From assembly GCA_025055435.1 (NCBI GenBank), contig JANWWN010000008.1, positions 1 to 64,000 of the forward strand: 64,000 nt of DNA, given 5' to 3'. Positions within the stretch are counted from its first letter, which is position 1. Each line of letters begins with the position of its first letter. The notes beneath the pieces were generated by a model that ran no database searches, was not told where the DNA came from, and was given only the letters and a program-made list of their open reading frames with translations. The translations under genes and the position numbers were made by a program. Positions 54,746 through 61,402 of the stretch are shown piece by piece. The stretch is from Cyclobacteriaceae bacterium. Lineage in GTDB: Bacteria; Bacteroidota; Bacteroidia; Cytophagales; Cyclobacteriaceae.

Positions 54746-55984
54746 TTAAGCCACCGCAGCTTCATGTAAAGCACCCGAACCTGTAGCCGGTAACAGGTTA
54801 ATCTCACAATCATCCGGGAATAGCACCACACGCACATGTTTGTCGGCCAGCAGAGCAGCAAGGTGTCCGAGTACTATTTCTCCGATTATAACCTGACCTT
54901 CCGCATGGGCATAGCCACCCATTACCCTTCGGAATACCTGCCAGGCTGCTGCCCGATTACCATCAAACCAAATCCATGCAGTAACAACCACATCATTTGA
55001 AAAGTGTAAACCAGTTGAAGTCGCCAGTTTGCGGTAATTATACCGGTAATCATTTTGCAGCGACACGATATCCGAAAAAACGGCCAGAGCGGTGGGCAAA
55101 CTTCCTGCGCCTTTTCCTGTGAGCAACTGACGACCCGCGAAGTTTCCGGTAAGCTGTACCGCATTGAACTCGTGGCGGATTCCGGCCAGCTGATGTGCAG
55201 ACGAAACAAATTGCGGCAGCACCCACGCACTGACCTGATTTTCCCTCCGCAGTGCGCGGACTACCAGCTTTAAAGCGAATCGGTGCTGACGTGCAAACTC
55301 TGCCTCTTCGCTGCCGATGCGACTGATACCCGATACCGGAATATCCTCCGGCCTAACGAGCAGTCCGTGTGCATGCAACAGGGCAATGCTTAGCTTATAC
55401 TGCGGATCAATACCCTCTACATCCAACAGCGGATTAGCTTCGGCAAAACCGAGTTGTTGGGCTTCGCGCAAGGCCTCAGTATAGGTTAGTTTTTCTTCCA
55501 GAACGCGGGTTAAGATGTAGTTGGTAGAACCATTAAAGATTCCTTCCAGTGAAACAATGTCTTCGTGCGCATAGTATTCCTCCAGGGTACGGATTACCGG
55601 AATACTGCCGCAAACGGCTGCCTCGTACAATACCGAACGGTTATGCTTTTTCTGCAGTCTGATGATTTCCTCCAGGTTCTCGGCCAGCATTTTTTTATTT
55701 GCTGTAACAACATGCTTGCCTTTTTTAAGGGCTTCTTTCAGAATCGCGAAAGCTGCATGGGCATCATCAATCAGTTCAACAATTACATCAATCGAATCAT
55801 CTGATAAAAGATCATCCGGATTGAAGGTAAAGTATTCGGTCGGTAAGGGTCGCGGCTTCATCGGGTTTTTAACACAGATTTTTTTTATGCTGATACCTGC
55901 CGGCTTTCGCTGCTCCAGGATTTTCCAAAGACCCTGGCCCACGCATCCGAAACCAAAAAGGCCGATGTTTATTTGTTTACTCAT
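54746..55984 (-). CDS. hom: homoserine dehydrogenase
   Basis: 412 residues. NAD(P) site IGLFGFGCVGQGLWKIL at the start, VTANKKMLAENLEE (catalytic Lys region), GIFNGSTNYILTR, and GFAEANPLLDVEGIDPQYKLSI. A C-terminal ACT-like region may follow. Makes homoserine for threonine and methionine. It is the last gene of the osmC-metY-metX-hom operon and overlaps metX by 8 bases. Confidence 0.93.
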   Translation of the reverse strand: MSKQINIGLFGFGCVGQGLWKILEQRKPAGISIKKICVKNPMKPRPLPTEYFTFNPDDLLSDDSIDVIVELIDDAHAAFAILKEALKKGKHVVTANKKMLAENLEEIIRLQKKHNRSVLYEAAVCGSIPVIRTLEEYYAHEDIVSLEGIFNGSTNYILTRVLEEKLTYTEALREAQQLGFAEANPLLDVEGIDPQYKLSIALLHAHGLLVRPEDIPVSGISRIGSEEAEFARQHRFALKLVVRALRRENQVSAWVLPQFVSSAHQLAGIRHEFNAVQLTGNFAGRQLLTGKGAGSLPTALAVFSDIVSLQNDYRYNYRKLATSTGLHFSNDVVVTAWIWFDGNRAAAWQVFRRVMGGYAHAEGQVIIGEIVLGHLAALLADKHVRVVLFPDDCEINLLPATGSGALHEAAVA

Positions 55985-57023
55985 ATAAAAAAAGCGTTTG
56001 GGTGTGATGGGAATAAAAATGCTGAAGTGCCTGTTTCAACTGACCAAACTCGGCCAGGAAGCCGTCATGACCGTACAGGGATGACAACACCGCCAGCCTT
56101 GCTCCGGGTATAGCGGATGCCAGATACTCCTGCTCCTGCAACGGATACAGGATGTCGGAGTCAATTCCGATAACCAGGGTTTTGCCCTGAATACGACCCA
56201 GCGCTTCTTCAGCCGAATCAGACTTTGTTCCTACCTGATGACTATCCATCATTCGGCTGAGCACATAGTAGGTAAAGGCATTAAACCGTTTGGCCAGTTT
56301 TTCGCCGTGGTAACGTTGGTACGTTACAGCTTTAAACTGATTGCTATCATGCCATATACCCTGTTGGGTTTGTCCATAGCAGGTATAGTTCCGGTAGGAT
56401 AACATGGCAATTGCACGGGCAGCCTTAAGCCCTTCGCATCCGGCATCATCGCGATTTTCCTTCCAGGTTGAGTCAGCTTCAATGGCCATGCGCTGTGCTT
56501 CATTAAAGGCAATACCCCAGGGCGAATGAAAAGCATTGCAGGCTATGGGTACAATGTGCCCGAAAACATGCGGCTGCAAAATAGCCCATTGCAGAACCTG
56601 CTGCCCGCCCAGAGAGCCGCCAATCAGCGTGTGAATTTTTTCCAGCCCCAGATGCTTTCGTAACAAATCGAAAGCGCGGGCCACATCGCGGGTTGTGAGT
56701 TGCGGAAAATCATGATAGTAAGGCTTTTTTGTTTCGGGATTAACCGACAACGGACCCGTTGAACCATAACAGCCTCCAAGCGTGTTAACGCAGATAATGA
56801 AATATTTTTCCGGCGCAAATATTCCCTCTTCCGAAAACAAAGGCGCCCACCACTGGGTAACATCCGAAGATCCGGTAAGGGCATGGCATACCCACACGGT
56901 ATTTGTACGGTCGGCATTTAACCGACCCAGTGTGGTATAGCGAAGCCGGAAGCCGGGAAGGACTTTTCCCGACTCCAGCTCAAACTGTTTCGGATACTCG
57001 AAATCGTGATGGGTGGCTATCAT
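55977..57023 (-). CDS. metX: homoserine O-acetyltransferase
   Basis: 348 residues, alpha/beta-hydrolase fold. Nucleophile elbow IGGSLGGQQVLQWAI, an oxyanion-like HALTGSSDV region, and catalytic Asp in VIGIDSDILYP and His in YGHDGFLAEF. Acetylates homoserine for the sulfhydrylase next door. Two bases separate it from metY. Confidence 0.93.
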   Translation of the reverse strand: MIATHHDFEYPKQFELESGKVLPGFRLRYTTLGRLNADRTNTVWVCHALTGSSDVTQWWAPLFSEEGIFAPEKYFIICVNTLGGCYGSTGPLSVNPETKKPYYHDFPQLTTRDVARAFDLLRKHLGLEKIHTLIGGSLGGQQVLQWAILQPHVFGHIVPIACNAFHSPWGIAFNEAQRMAIEADSTWKENRDDAGCEGLKAARAIAMLSYRNYTCYGQTQQGIWHDSNQFKAVTYQRYHGEKLAKRFNAFTYYVLSRMMDSHQVGTKSDSAEEALGRIQGKTLVIGIDSDILYPLQEQEYLASAIPGARLAVLSSLYGHDGFLAEFGQLKQALQHFYSHHTQTLFLYE

Positions 57024-57025
57024 GG

Positions 57026-58802
<1,777 letters not shown>

Positions 58803-58853
58803 ATACAGATAGTTTGGTTTTTTTTGGAGGATTAAAATTGAAATTGAACCGGC

Positions 58854-58921
58854 AGGCACAGATGCACTACGCCTGTTCACCGCAAGGCTTTATCCGTTAC
58901 GGAATATCGGATAGCAGCCTT
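58854..58921 (-). promoter_or_regulatory. alternative hairpins between Cys leader and osmC
   Basis: Right at the leader stop, AAGGCT (58921-58916) pairs with AGCCTT (58889-58884), with ATCCG/CGGAT inside. TCCG-TAA-CGGA (58903-58893) is a competing hairpin using the same CGGA. A second stem, CAGGC/GCCTG, follows and ends at about 58854. No strong U-run follows, so control could be by anti-termination of a weak terminator or by hiding the osmC start; the mechanism is inferred. Confidence 0.5.
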
Positions 58922-59069
58922 AACAGCAGATACAACAACAACACATCATGGCATGCTGACGCATACCTCCTGTGCTGCAAATCGAAATGTGTGCAGAAGG
59001 ATTAAACAGACTGAGCGAAACGGAAACGCTGCGGCCGGAAAGTTGAAGGAGTTGTGCTTTGTTTTTCAT
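58920..59069 (-). CDS. cysteine-run leader peptide ORF
   Basis: 49-residue ORF (ATG at 59069) lying between the riboswitch and osmC. Its final part reads MRQHAMMCCCCICC then stop: codons TGT x4, ATC, TGC, TGT (58943-58923). An internal in-frame ATG at 58964 would give a 14-residue peptide, and AGGAGG (58971-58966) ends one base before it, unusual in this genome. A ribosome stalling on the Cys codons for lack of charged tRNA-Cys would change which downstream hairpin forms. Reading as a regulatory leader peptide is inference. Confidence 0.6.
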   Translation of the reverse strand: MKNKAQLLQLSGRSVSVSLSLFNPSAHISICSTGGMRQHAMMCCCCICC

Positions 59070-59076
59070 TTTTTTA

Positions 59077-59190
59077 TCGGTTTATATTCCCCCCGCTTTG
59101 GCGAGGCGTCAGGATTTAGCACCGTGCACATTTTGTGTCGGTTGCTAGCGCTTCACAGAGCCTGTCTCTCCGCGCTTCTTTATAAATCGA
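59077..59190 (-). promoter_or_regulatory. SAM-I type riboswitch (S box)
   Basis: On the minus strand: P1 strand TCGATTTATA (59190-59181), the AAGAAGCGCGGAGAGA core, GCTAGCAACC, a P3 stem CCGACACAAAATGTGCACGG (CCG, CACA/TGTG and CGG paired), the near-invariant GGTGCTAAATCCTG (59122-59109), a P4 hairpin CCTCGC/GCGGGG, and P1' TATAAACCGA (59086-59077), pairing 9 of 10. These match SAM-I riboswitches that shut off methionine genes when S-adenosylmethionine is high. The operon behind it makes homocysteine, as expected. Confidence 0.88.
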
Positions 59191-59221
59191 TAGCAGCGTG
59201 GTGCTGTGTCGATTGTTAATG

Positions 59222-59253
59222 CAAACGTATAGACTGAAATTTTTGTTACCAAA
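59222..59253 (-). promoter_or_regulatory. promoter of the riboswitch-osmC-metYX-hom operon
   Basis: TTTG (59253-59250), a 20-base spacer and TACGTTTG (59229-59222): a full match to the Bacteroidota -33 TTTG / -7 TAnnTTTG promoter. Transcription would begin about 20-30 bases before the riboswitch. Confidence 0.75.
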
Positions 59254-59296
59254 TAAAAAGACGATTTTTTTTCAATAAAAAACTAACAAGCGTTTG

Positions 59297-59998
59297 ATGG
59301 TAAAGAACCTGATCATTGTCAATTTCCTGATAATCATCGGAATTCAGGCTATCGCACAGGAACGGGCAGACGAGCGGGAACGCATGGTAAAACAACAACT
59401 CATCAGCCGCGGCATCCGCTCAAAAGCCGTGCTGGATGCCATGCGCAAAGTAGAACGACACCGGTTCGTTCCTACCGAAGTAAGTTCCCAAGCCTACAAT
59501 GACTACCCCCTTCCGATTGGCGAAGGACAAACTATTTCACAACCGTATATCGTTGCCTTCATGACGGAAGCACTGGAATTGAAACCAACTGACAAGGTGT
59601 TGGAAGTGGGCACCGGTTCGGGCTATCAGGCGGCTATCCTGGCTGAAATCTGTCGGGAGGTATATACCATTGAAATTGTTGAATCTTTAGGAAAGCAAGC
59701 AGCACAAATCCTTAAACAACTGGGTTACACCAACGTGCACGTGCGCATTGGCGATGGCTATTTCGGATGGCCTGAAGCTGCCCCCTTCGATGCCATTATT
59801 GTAACTTGTTCTCCTTCCGATGTTCCCGAACCGCTGCAGCAACAACTGGCTGAAGGCGGAAGAATGATAATTCCCGTAGGCGAAGGGCAGGTTCAGGAAC
59901 TGGTACTCATCACCAAACAAAACGAAAAACTAAAGCGCCAGCACCGGCTTCCTGTGCTTTTCGTGCCGATGCGGGATAAGAAGGGAAAAAGGTACTAA
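59297..59998 (+). CDS. pcm: protein-L-isoaspartate O-methyltransferase, exported
   Basis: 233 residues from ATG 59297. An N-terminal signal peptide (NLIIVNFLIIIGIQAIAQ) makes it a likely periplasmic form; most PCMs are cytoplasmic. The catalytic domain has RHRFVPTEVSS, the SAM-binding VLEVGTGSGYQAAIL and FDAIIVTCSP. Repairs isoaspartate in aged proteins. Divergent from the met operon; the gap 58803-59296 holds the riboswitch, leader and promoter. Confidence 0.9.
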   Translation: MVKNLIIVNFLIIIGIQAIAQERADERERMVKQQLISRGIRSKAVLDAMRKVERHRFVPTEVSSQAYNDYPLPIGEGQTISQPYIVAFMTEALELKPTDKVLEVGTGSGYQAAILAEICREVYTIEIVESLGKQAAQILKQLGYTNVHVRIGDGYFGWPEAAPFDAIIVTCSPSDVPEPLQQQLAEGGRMIIPVGEGQVQELVLITKQNEKLKRQHRLPVLFVPMRDKKGKRY

Positions 59999-60073
59999 CA
60001 CCAAACTCATCCGGTCAAACGGTGTTTAATGATAAAAAACACCCATTTTCCTGCCGTTTTAACGGCCGGACTC

Positions 60074-60081
60074 TATATTTG
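60074..60081 (+). promoter_or_regulatory. -7 box TATATTTG for nqrF
   Basis: TATATTTG fits TAnnTTTG and lies 22 bases before the ATG at 60104. It supports that start over the earlier in-frame ATG at 60029. Confidence 0.45.
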
Positions 60082-60103
60082 TAACCCTAAAAATGTAAGA
60101 TTC

Positions 60104-61402
60104 ATGGTTATTGCATCGTCCATCATTGCCTTTACCCTAATCATTTTCCTTTTGGTGCTGCTGCTGCTGTTTGCACAGAAAAAACTCGTCCAATCCGGTC
60201 CGGTTAAAATAGTTATCAATGGCGATGAGCAAAAAGCCATCGTTGTACCGGCCGGGTCATCCCTGCTTAGCACACTGGCCAGTCAGAAAATATTTATTCC
60301 TTCAGCCTGCGGCGGAGGGGGCACCTGCGCCATGTGCAAGTGCGTGGTGGAAGAAGGCGGTGGCGATGTATTACCAACCGAGTTGGGGCACCTGAGCCGT
60401 AAAGAAAGAGCCGATCACGTACGGCTGAGCTGCCAGGTTAAGGTTAAACAGGATATGCGTATTCGCATTCCTGAAGAAATTTTTGGTATCAAGAAATGGG
60501 AATGCGAAGTAGTTTCAAATTATAACGTTTCCACTTTTATTAAAGAATTCGTTGTAAAACTGCCTCCGGGCGAGACACTGAAATTTGAAGCTGGCGGCTA
60601 TATCCAGATTGACGTTCCGCCCTGCACGGTAAATTTCAAGGATATTGATATTACGCCTCATCCCGAACTTGGCCACAAACCTGATATATTCAAAAGCGAC
60701 TGGGATAAATTCAAAATGTGGGACCTGAAGATGGTAAATGATGAGCCCATTTTCCGTGCTTATTCCATGGCCAATCATCCCGCCGAAGGCAACATCATCA
60801 TGCTAAACATCCGGATTGCCACACCTCCCTGGGATAGGGCCAACAACAAATGGATGGATGTTAACCCGGGTATTTGCTCTTCCTATATCTTTTCGCGTAA
60901 GCCGGGTGATAAGGTAACCATATCGGGTCCTTATGGTGAATTCCATATCAACCCCACTGATCGTGAAATGATTTACATTGGCGGTGGTGCCGGCATGGCC
61001 CCTCTCCGCGCGCAGATTTTCCACCTGTTCCATACCGAAAAAACCAAGCGCAAAGTCTCGTATTGGTACGGCGGGCGGTCGAAAAAGGAGTTGTTTTATG
61101 TTGACCACTTCCGAAAAATAGAAAAAGAGTTTCCCAACTTCCGTTTCTATATCGGCCTTTCCGAGCCATTGCCGGAAGATAACTGGAAAGTGAAGAAAAG
61201 CCTGGACGATCCGGAAGGCGACGGCTATATCGGCTTTATCCATCAGTGTTTGTATGATAATTATCTGAAACACCATCCGGCACCCGAAGATGTGGAGTAC
61301 TACCTCTGTGGCCCTCCGCTGATGAATGCTGCCGTTTTGAAGATGCTGGATGAAATGGGAATACCGAAAGAAAACATCCGCTTTGACGACTTTGGCGGCT
61401 GA
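60104..61402 (+). CDS. nqrF: Na+-translocating NADH:quinone reductase subunit F
   Basis: 432 residues from ATG 60104. A membrane anchor ([17 protein letters not shown]) and a 2Fe-2S domain with Cys 69, 75 and 78 ([14 protein letters not shown]) and a fourth in RLSCQV. Then an FAD/NAD reductase module with [23 protein letters not shown] and [12 protein letters not shown]. NqrF receives electrons from NADH and passes them to the pump. Subunits A to E are not in the window; the gene is between pcm and a terminator. Confidence 0.93.

Follow-up and report, generated by a model that had tools for sequence, protein, structure and literature searches.

The locus raises the question of why a short open reading frame (ORF) that ends in a run of cysteine codons should stand directly behind a SAM riboswitch and ahead of a sulfur operon. 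The window analysed here, a stretch of 64,000 nucleotides from a Cyclobacteriaceae genome, carries on its minus strand a promoter-like element about 30 nt 5' of the aptamer, the aptamer itself, the ORF and, 117 nt beyond the stop codon of the ORF, the start of an operon with the gene order osmC-metY-metX-hom (Table 1). An earlier note had placed the ORF between the riboswitch and osmC; its coordinates were right, and ORF, riboswitch and operon all lie on the minus strand. The tail it described (four Cys codons, Ile, two Cys codons, stop) is exact, and two Met codons that it did not mention precede it, the peptide ending in ...MRQHAMMCCCCICC*, that is, MMCCCCICC followed by TAA.

The leader and its distribution

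A short ORF with a run of putative regulatory codons near its end, as found here, is one mark of a leader-peptide attenuator. The aptamer matched the SAM-I covariance model over its full length and with a score well above the gathering score. The promoter-like element fits the consensus of the Bacteroidota type; TTG-N18-22-TANNTTTG occurred 5' of the aptamer at 52 of the 77 leader loci described below, against 0.4 expected in shuffled sequences. On the plus strand across the promoter (59297-61402) lie ordinary genes, for a protein-L-isoaspartate methyltransferase and nqrF.

Table 1. Features of the leader region and operon, with positions in the window
Feature	Position	Strand	Basis
Promoter-like TTTG-N20-TACGTTTG	59222..59253	minus	read from sequence; presumed Bacteroidota type
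SAM-I riboswitch aptamer (RF00162)	59079..59188	minus	cmscan 72 bits, gathering score 44.4, full length
P1 helix 3' strand (UAUAAACC), proposed leader initiation region	59079..59086	minus	P1 sequence compared with metH type; folds of 77 leaders
Leader ORF, 49 aa, ATG 9 nt 3' of aptamer	58920..59069	minus	sequence; 77 distinct leaders resembling it
Proposed regulatory codons Met-Met-Cys4-Ile-Cys2, adjoining TAA	58923..58949	minus	Cys by position; Met by enrichment
Post-stop hairpin 1 (predicted)	58886..58919	minus	folding; post-stop z against shuffles
Post-stop hairpin 2 (predicted), without U-tract	58850..58882	minus	folding
osmC-family gene	58359..58802	minus	Pfam PF02566, 69.7 bits
metY, O-acetylhomoserine sulfhydrylase	57026..58351	minus	TIGR01326, 675 bits, cut-off 495
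metX-like homoserine acyltransferase	55977..57023	minus	TIGR01392, 323 bits, under the cut-off of 500
Homoserine dehydrogenase (hom)	54746..55984	minus	NF004976, 323 bits, cut-off 205

The expectation that such a Cys run would hardly arise by chance was borne out. CCCC-x-CC-stop with up to three mismatches was expected 0.11 times in the window and matched three times, the leader being the only exact match, while CC-x-CC-stop matched three times in the 2.79-Mb genome, one match ending in TGG (no stop) and another lying on contig C4, and the reversed control pattern gave no match there. The decisive evidence is conservation: 77 distinct leader peptides, selected by Cys and not by Met, were recovered from 80 of 152 riboswitch regions, and the leader ORF is therefore real.

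SAM riboswitches were detected in 53 of 59 genomes, that of the window included. A leader was scored where an ATG lay within 25 nt of the riboswitch and opened an ORF of 18-70 aa with at least three Cys in the last 14 residues. The genus/family set comprised 82 riboswitches, namely 80 hit regions from genomes G000-G035 (G035 with one of its three hits; G036-G058 were left out), the window itself and one additional aptamer in region L063, which is L063b in the leader count and L115 in the set of 219 riboswitches used below. In this set the leader followed 24 of 27 riboswitches before metY, five of eight before sulfite reductase operons and two of six unclassified ones. By the same criterion it followed none of the 31 metH riboswitches, which serve as an internal control because they were drawn from the same set of genomes, and none of those before other Cys/Met PLP enzymes (0/8) or before metX or hom alone (0/2).

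Among 80 named loci chosen by metY similarity, 71 had a riboswitch match (nine had none) and 50 of these 71 had the leader. Leader-bearing taxa were Chryseolinea serpens, Pontibacter, Hymenobacter and Thermonema in the Cytophagales, Mucilaginibacter and Pedobacter in the Sphingobacteriales, and metagenome-assembled genomes in the Saprospirales; orders were checked for Mucilaginibacter, Hymenobacter, Lewinella, Chryseolinea and Thermonema, and those of the remaining leader-bearing taxa (e.g., Pontibacter, Pedobacter) are our presumption. The 21 riboswitch-bearing loci without leader came from Algoriphagus and relatives, from Chitinophagaceae records, where no riboswitch was followed by a leader, and from others. 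All seven tabulated Algoriphagus loci lacked the Cys run, though the ATG was kept at +8 or +9, and they are losses of the run. In a wider phylum sample, which was not random (30 automatic best-scoring loci and 40 picked by family), the leader was present at three of ten picked metY loci and at none of the ten metY loci within the 30 best-scoring, and it was also missing at three metY genes of greater divergence (50-52% identity), which belong to one other family. Since the metY loci of this wider sample are mostly without it, the leader is confined to some orders and does not extend to the whole phylum.

Across the 77 leaders (22-64 aa) the peptide bodies drift and the number and spacing of Cys vary, as judged by inspection, while the tails stay Cys-rich. 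The earlier note had named an alignment of relatives beforehand as its test, and the Cys run proved to be kept in three orders while the rest drifts, the pattern of an attenuator in which regulatory codons are preserved and the remainder is free to change. A functional small Cys-rich peptide, for example one that binds metal, would explain tails rich in Cys and Met, but is made very improbable by this range of lengths, by the variable Cys number and spacing and by the drift of the bodies. NCBIfam 20.0 likewise gave no family for the leader at a maximum E-value of 10, in a search whose filters remove the majority of weak matches.

The pair of SAM riboswitch and Cys leader also occurred ahead of an ATP-grasp (RimK-like) gene and of a gene without a Pfam match (L050 and L099). 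At a Paraflavitalea locus (L192), one of the nine named metY loci mentioned above that have no riboswitch match, an ORF with a Cys-rich end (CCCSSQPMMGCCCE) lay 92 nt 5' of metY.

Codons of the tail and the P1 strand

Over the last six codons of the 77 leaders the Cys fractions were 0.75, 0.78, 0.71, 0.58, 0.74 and 0.58, values inflated by the selection for Cys, and past the 14th codon from the end they were 0.00-0.09. Met, which was not selected for, made up 16.2% of the non-Cys tail residues against 1.1% of the body residues (odds ratio about 17, p 1.6e-44), a result reproduced in 38 non-redundant leaders (odds ratio 18, p 2.5e-23), and it occurred within the last 14 codons of 62 of the 77. 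This enrichment of Met codons points to a leader that probably responds to both sulfur amino acids, and we regard its tail as a predicted sensor of Cys and Met, probably not of Cys alone. The proposal that a Cys leader and a SAM riboswitch are joined on one Bacteroidota sulfur operon is thus supported in its core, the combination being conserved, while a restriction of the sensing to Cys codons is probably wrong, since Met is co-enriched. That Cys and Met codons precede metY and metX also gives the match between codon and pathway product that is looked for in leader-peptide attenuators. In other pathways, too, there are leaders that carry codons for more than one amino acid (thrL, ilvL); for methionine-codon leaders, the open-access literature searched gave nothing relevant.

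Met was present in the tails of 60 of 70 metY leaders and two of seven non-metY leaders (p 0.0025). A later sulfite reductase leader, L322, has Met and brings the latter count to three of eight, and a preference of Met for metY leaders over the others is suggestive only. In another genome (L237, G160), the leader that occupies this riboswitch position ahead of metY has a Met-rich tail (MCSPSMRMRMPMSCFSYMCA) with few Cys, possibly a shift from Cys to Met sensing.

The same codons bear on whether the ORF is a product of chance or its UG repeats are kept for RNA pairing and not as codons. In one subgroup, ACAACA-like stretches further 3' offer the Cys codons a pairing partner. TGT and TGC were nevertheless both used (306 and 170 times in the leaders), ATG triplets in the tails numbered 102 in frame but only 12 and 6 in the other two frames, and no such ORF followed any metH riboswitch of the same genome set, all of which makes this explanation exceedingly improbable.

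The 3' strand of the P1 helix differed between leader-type and metH riboswitches. In the leader type its last eight bases were mostly UAUAAAYY, with U at -8 in 90% and A at -3 in 92%, whereas the metH aptamers had G at both places in 31 of 31, the strand being mostly GAUAAGUA. Among 219 riboswitches, from which the duplicate loci L114, L127 and L159 were left out, 92 of the 97 with U at -8 had an ATG at +5 to +11, as had 20 of the 122 others (p 6.5e-35, by a statistic that ignores relatedness); eight Cys leaders in this test were without U at -8, and none of the 31 metH riboswitches had an ATG at +5 to +11. The Algoriphagus loci without Cys run had UAUAAA in six of seven cases and UAUAAG in one, and among the metY riboswitches without leader in the phylum sample all 15 that were printed had G at that position of P1.

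In the window, the P1 3' strand occupies -10 to -17 relative to the leader ATG. When P1 was forced or barred by folding constraint in the 77-leader set, the pairing that changed lay almost entirely between about -9 and -17 of the ATG; for the P1 strand proper, the constraint imposes that change. Once P1 was barred, the strand was mostly unpaired. Leader starts had A at -12, -13 and -14 in 84, 73 and 71% of cases and at -3 in 62%. The P1-dependent region overlaps the A-rich element reported for Flavobacterium johnsoniae, where A at -14 to -11 (notably -12 and -13), -6 and -3 goes with strong initiation (PMC6847099). It has been noted that the P1 helix of SAM-I can include a ribosome-binding site (PMC2258182); here the site would serve a sensor ORF and not the gene. 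The P1 strand thus apparently serves the leader as its site of initiation as well. With the 3' strand of a leader-type P1 lying at the A-rich initiation site, SAM probably gates leader translation, and the riboswitch most likely acts on leader initiation, so that the inputs would work in series, one nested in the other. The two-input control envisaged at the outset is thus retained insofar as both elements occupy one leader, and is revised insofar as the inputs were taken to be independent. We also considered an OR logic, in which the SAM-free RNA hides the leader ATG, and rejected it because pairing of the ATG region hardly differed between folds with P1 forced and with P1 barred.

RNA beyond the stop codon and the proposed control

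RNA after the stop codon folded better than shuffled sequences (mean z -1.23 over the 77 leaders; -1.09 in the window) and better than the leader body (z -0.25; paired p 1.1e-6), although the whole post-riboswitch region of the window did not fold significantly better than shuffled versions of it (z -1.26; 20 of 200 did equally well). The last codons and the stop codon paired with RNA 8-60 nt downstream at a mean z of -0.60 (p 0.0003), against -0.17 and 0.05 in controls (paired p 0.025 against the control segment). This pairing reached p <= 0.05 in 12 of the 77 leaders and was strong in several close relatives; in the window it was not significant (p 0.105). A first version of the test had given z -0.65 against -0.32 in the control, and 0.0 in the window. 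On average the predicted pairing is modest.

Consensus folding yielded no structure for 21 Cyclobacteriaceae-type leaders and weak structures for four other groups. In a subgroup of nine Cyclobacteriaceae-type leaders, compensatory changes were found in six pairs, compared with 1.6 in shuffles and 0-1 when slid. All six fell in the downstream hairpin; the tail helix had no double-sided changes in the tested register and two such pairs in the register of RNAalifold. In minimum-energy folds, tail codons and stop paired downstream in 58 of the 77 leaders without a ribosome and in 51 of them when a stalled ribosome occupied the first Cys codon, while a ribosome at the stop abolished the pairing by construction, its footprint being imposed. 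Untranslated and stalled RNAs thus form the modelled post-stop hairpin about equally, and a simple hairpin logic fails to make the untranslated leader an off state; because that state is left unexplained, a Rho step has to be added by inference.

The search for a conventional terminator gave no intrinsic terminator at positions 58750-59350 of the window (0.7 expected) and five among the 77 leaders (3.5 expected), which is no enrichment, and such an output was rejected. The element is consequently not a classical trp-type attenuator, the shape in which it had been cast by the earlier note. Because a terminator was sought and not found, we file it under leader-peptide control, as a variant distinct from the classical attenuator, and take the output step, purely by analogy, to be presumably Rho-dependent termination or RNA decay. 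The same result weighs on an arrangement in which the riboswitch and a Cys-only attenuator act independently on one operon through a conventional terminator. The two elements do share one leader, as that arrangement would have it, but with intrinsic terminators not enriched, Met codons co-enriched in the tails, and an ATG at +5 to +11 and a changed P1 strand coupling the aptamer to the start of the ORF, we think it quite improbable.

On the observed anatomy, conservation, codon enrichment, P1 strand change and post-stop structure, we consider it fairly probable that the SAM-I riboswitch controls initiation of a Cys/Met-tailed leader, whose stalling lets transcription reach the operon. With SAM bound, P1 would close and pair the A-rich strand about 9-17 nt 5' of the leader ATG, leaving the leader untranslated and the operon off. 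At low SAM the leader, of whose last ~10 codons most are Cys and Met, would be translated. Were Cys-tRNA or Met-tRNA short, the ribosome would stall on the tail, the hairpin of the last codons, the stop and the post-stop RNA could form, and transcription would proceed into osmC-metY-metX; with Cys and Met plentiful, the ribosome would get to the stop and disrupt the hairpin, and transcription would be cut short, probably by Rho since no intrinsic terminator is present. Gating by SAM, stalling and the sign of the response are, like the role of Rho, steps that we infer. Under SAM gating, a shortage of Cys at high SAM would leave the operon off, which counts against the mechanism, as do the Algoriphagus loci that retain the ATG platform but have lost the Cys run. 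The recurrence of an RNA switch directly at the start of a Cys/Met-tailed ORF nevertheless means that one operon probably reads several sulfur signals. With a confidence only a little above even, we further propose that the 'gene' regulated by this riboswitch is itself a tRNA-sensing leader, making a nested SAM/Cys/Met gate on homocysteine synthesis in three Bacteroidota orders, with no intrinsic terminator.

Sulfur metabolism and comparison with known systems

Homocysteine, the product of MetY, gives rise to Met and SAM and, by transsulfuration via cystathionine, to Cys. In the window's genus, cysE (serine acetyltransferase) had no match above 57 bits in 16 of 17 genomes and one at 162 bits in the other, matches of about 502-517 bits to cystathionine beta-synthase were found in 16 of 17 (over the cut-off in four of the 17), and sulfite reductase had no match at E <= 1e-40 in three sampled members. 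The lack of a clear serine acetyltransferase, the presence of beta-synthase-like genes and the lack of a sulfite reductase match together suggest that the genus depends on reduced sulfur and that sulfide probably enters both amino acids through MetY, for which an input from Cys, Met and SAM makes sense. We also asked whether the Cys run marks genomes without direct cysteine synthesis. The genus fits, but the named genomes refute a general rule, since 42 of 50, with and without the Cys run, had cysE-like matches (93-201 bits at E <= 1e-25, none over the cut-off).

These cysE-like genes, with which MetY may compete for sulfide, would suit a response of reverse sign, in which a ribosome at the stop, when Cys and Met are plentiful, permits expression, a stalled or untranslated leader means off, and Met synthesis from sulfide waits until Cys suffices. 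So would the folds, in which many leaders formed a similar post-stop hairpin whether untranslated or stalled and only a ribosome positioned at the stop removed it, the latter a consequence of the imposed footprint. The cysS leader described in PMC8632094 is, however, presumed there to respond in the opposite way, the proline response in mgtCBR was shown to run oppositely (PMC3641672), and the window's genus, without clear cysE and with beta-synthase-like genes, would need MetY for Cys. We therefore judge the reverse sign unlikely and keep to expression upon stalling. If that mechanism is true, it would explain why metY, whose homocysteine serves Met and Cys, has both inputs and why metH, needed for Met only, carries just the riboswitch. 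It would also be a natural instance of a riboswitch and a ribosome-based sensor connected in series, and not side by side, and a case of leader-peptide control in Bacteroidota, a phylum where limited literature searches gave none. Because aptamer, leader codons and P1 strand lend themselves to separate mutation, this logic is open to direct test.

In the open-access literature searched, we found no description of a SAM riboswitch combined with a Cys or Met leader and, among papers on sulfur, Cys and Met leaders, no leader-peptide attenuator in Bacteroidetes. Polycysteine short ORFs of mycobacteria reportedly described by Canestrari et al. in 2020 are said to be leaderless. A 2010 survey names Proteobacteria and Actinobacteria as the only groups in which leader peptides had by that date been demonstrated, and itself adds Firmicutes (PMC2965389). 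The closest parallel is with the cys/cbs leaders of Actinobacteria (PMC1262725), which likewise are short ORFs with Cys codons by the stop before sulfur genes, have no conserved terminator hairpins and prompted the suggestion of Rho; they belong to another phylum and, in the parts of that account compared here, have no upstream riboswitch and no mention of Met codons. The uORFC-8-2 leader of cysS in Rhodobacterales shares Cys codons and a proposed ribosome-mediated attenuation, but as described has two Cys codons, a U run consistent with an intrinsic terminator and no riboswitch, and precedes an aminoacyl-tRNA synthetase gene (PMC8632094).

In the tandem attenuators of Salmonella mgtCBR one leader RNA also reads several signals, one of them via a codon-rich ORF and charged tRNA; in the account given there, by contrast, two ORFs respond to ATP and proline independently and additively, and no metabolite aptamer gates an ORF (PMC3641672). 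The SAM-II riboswitch of Sinorhizobium metA resembles the present element in having a SAM aptamer by the first AUG and regulation further downstream; it differs in aptamer class and in an AUG1 that is in frame with the gene, and its description, as compared here, includes no regulatory codon run (PMC9373788). The metH SAM-I riboswitches of the same genome set belong to the same aptamer family as the leader type but carry GAUAAG in the P1 3' strand in most cases, and both the ATG at +5 to +11 and the leader are absent from all 31.

Outside the leader type described above, three genera that belong to one other family have short ORFs with the tail RCACWFWCC ahead of sulfite reductase (L294, stop near 1249; L299, near 1200; L312, near 1390), with no SAM riboswitch match in the 1.5 kb covered; this is a putative second, separate type of Cys leader, with a conserved peptide. 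In distant members of the phylum (L194, L196, L198, L201, L204 and L205), SAM riboswitches precede a gene whose product resembles what we take to be the N-terminus of an rRNA methyltransferase.
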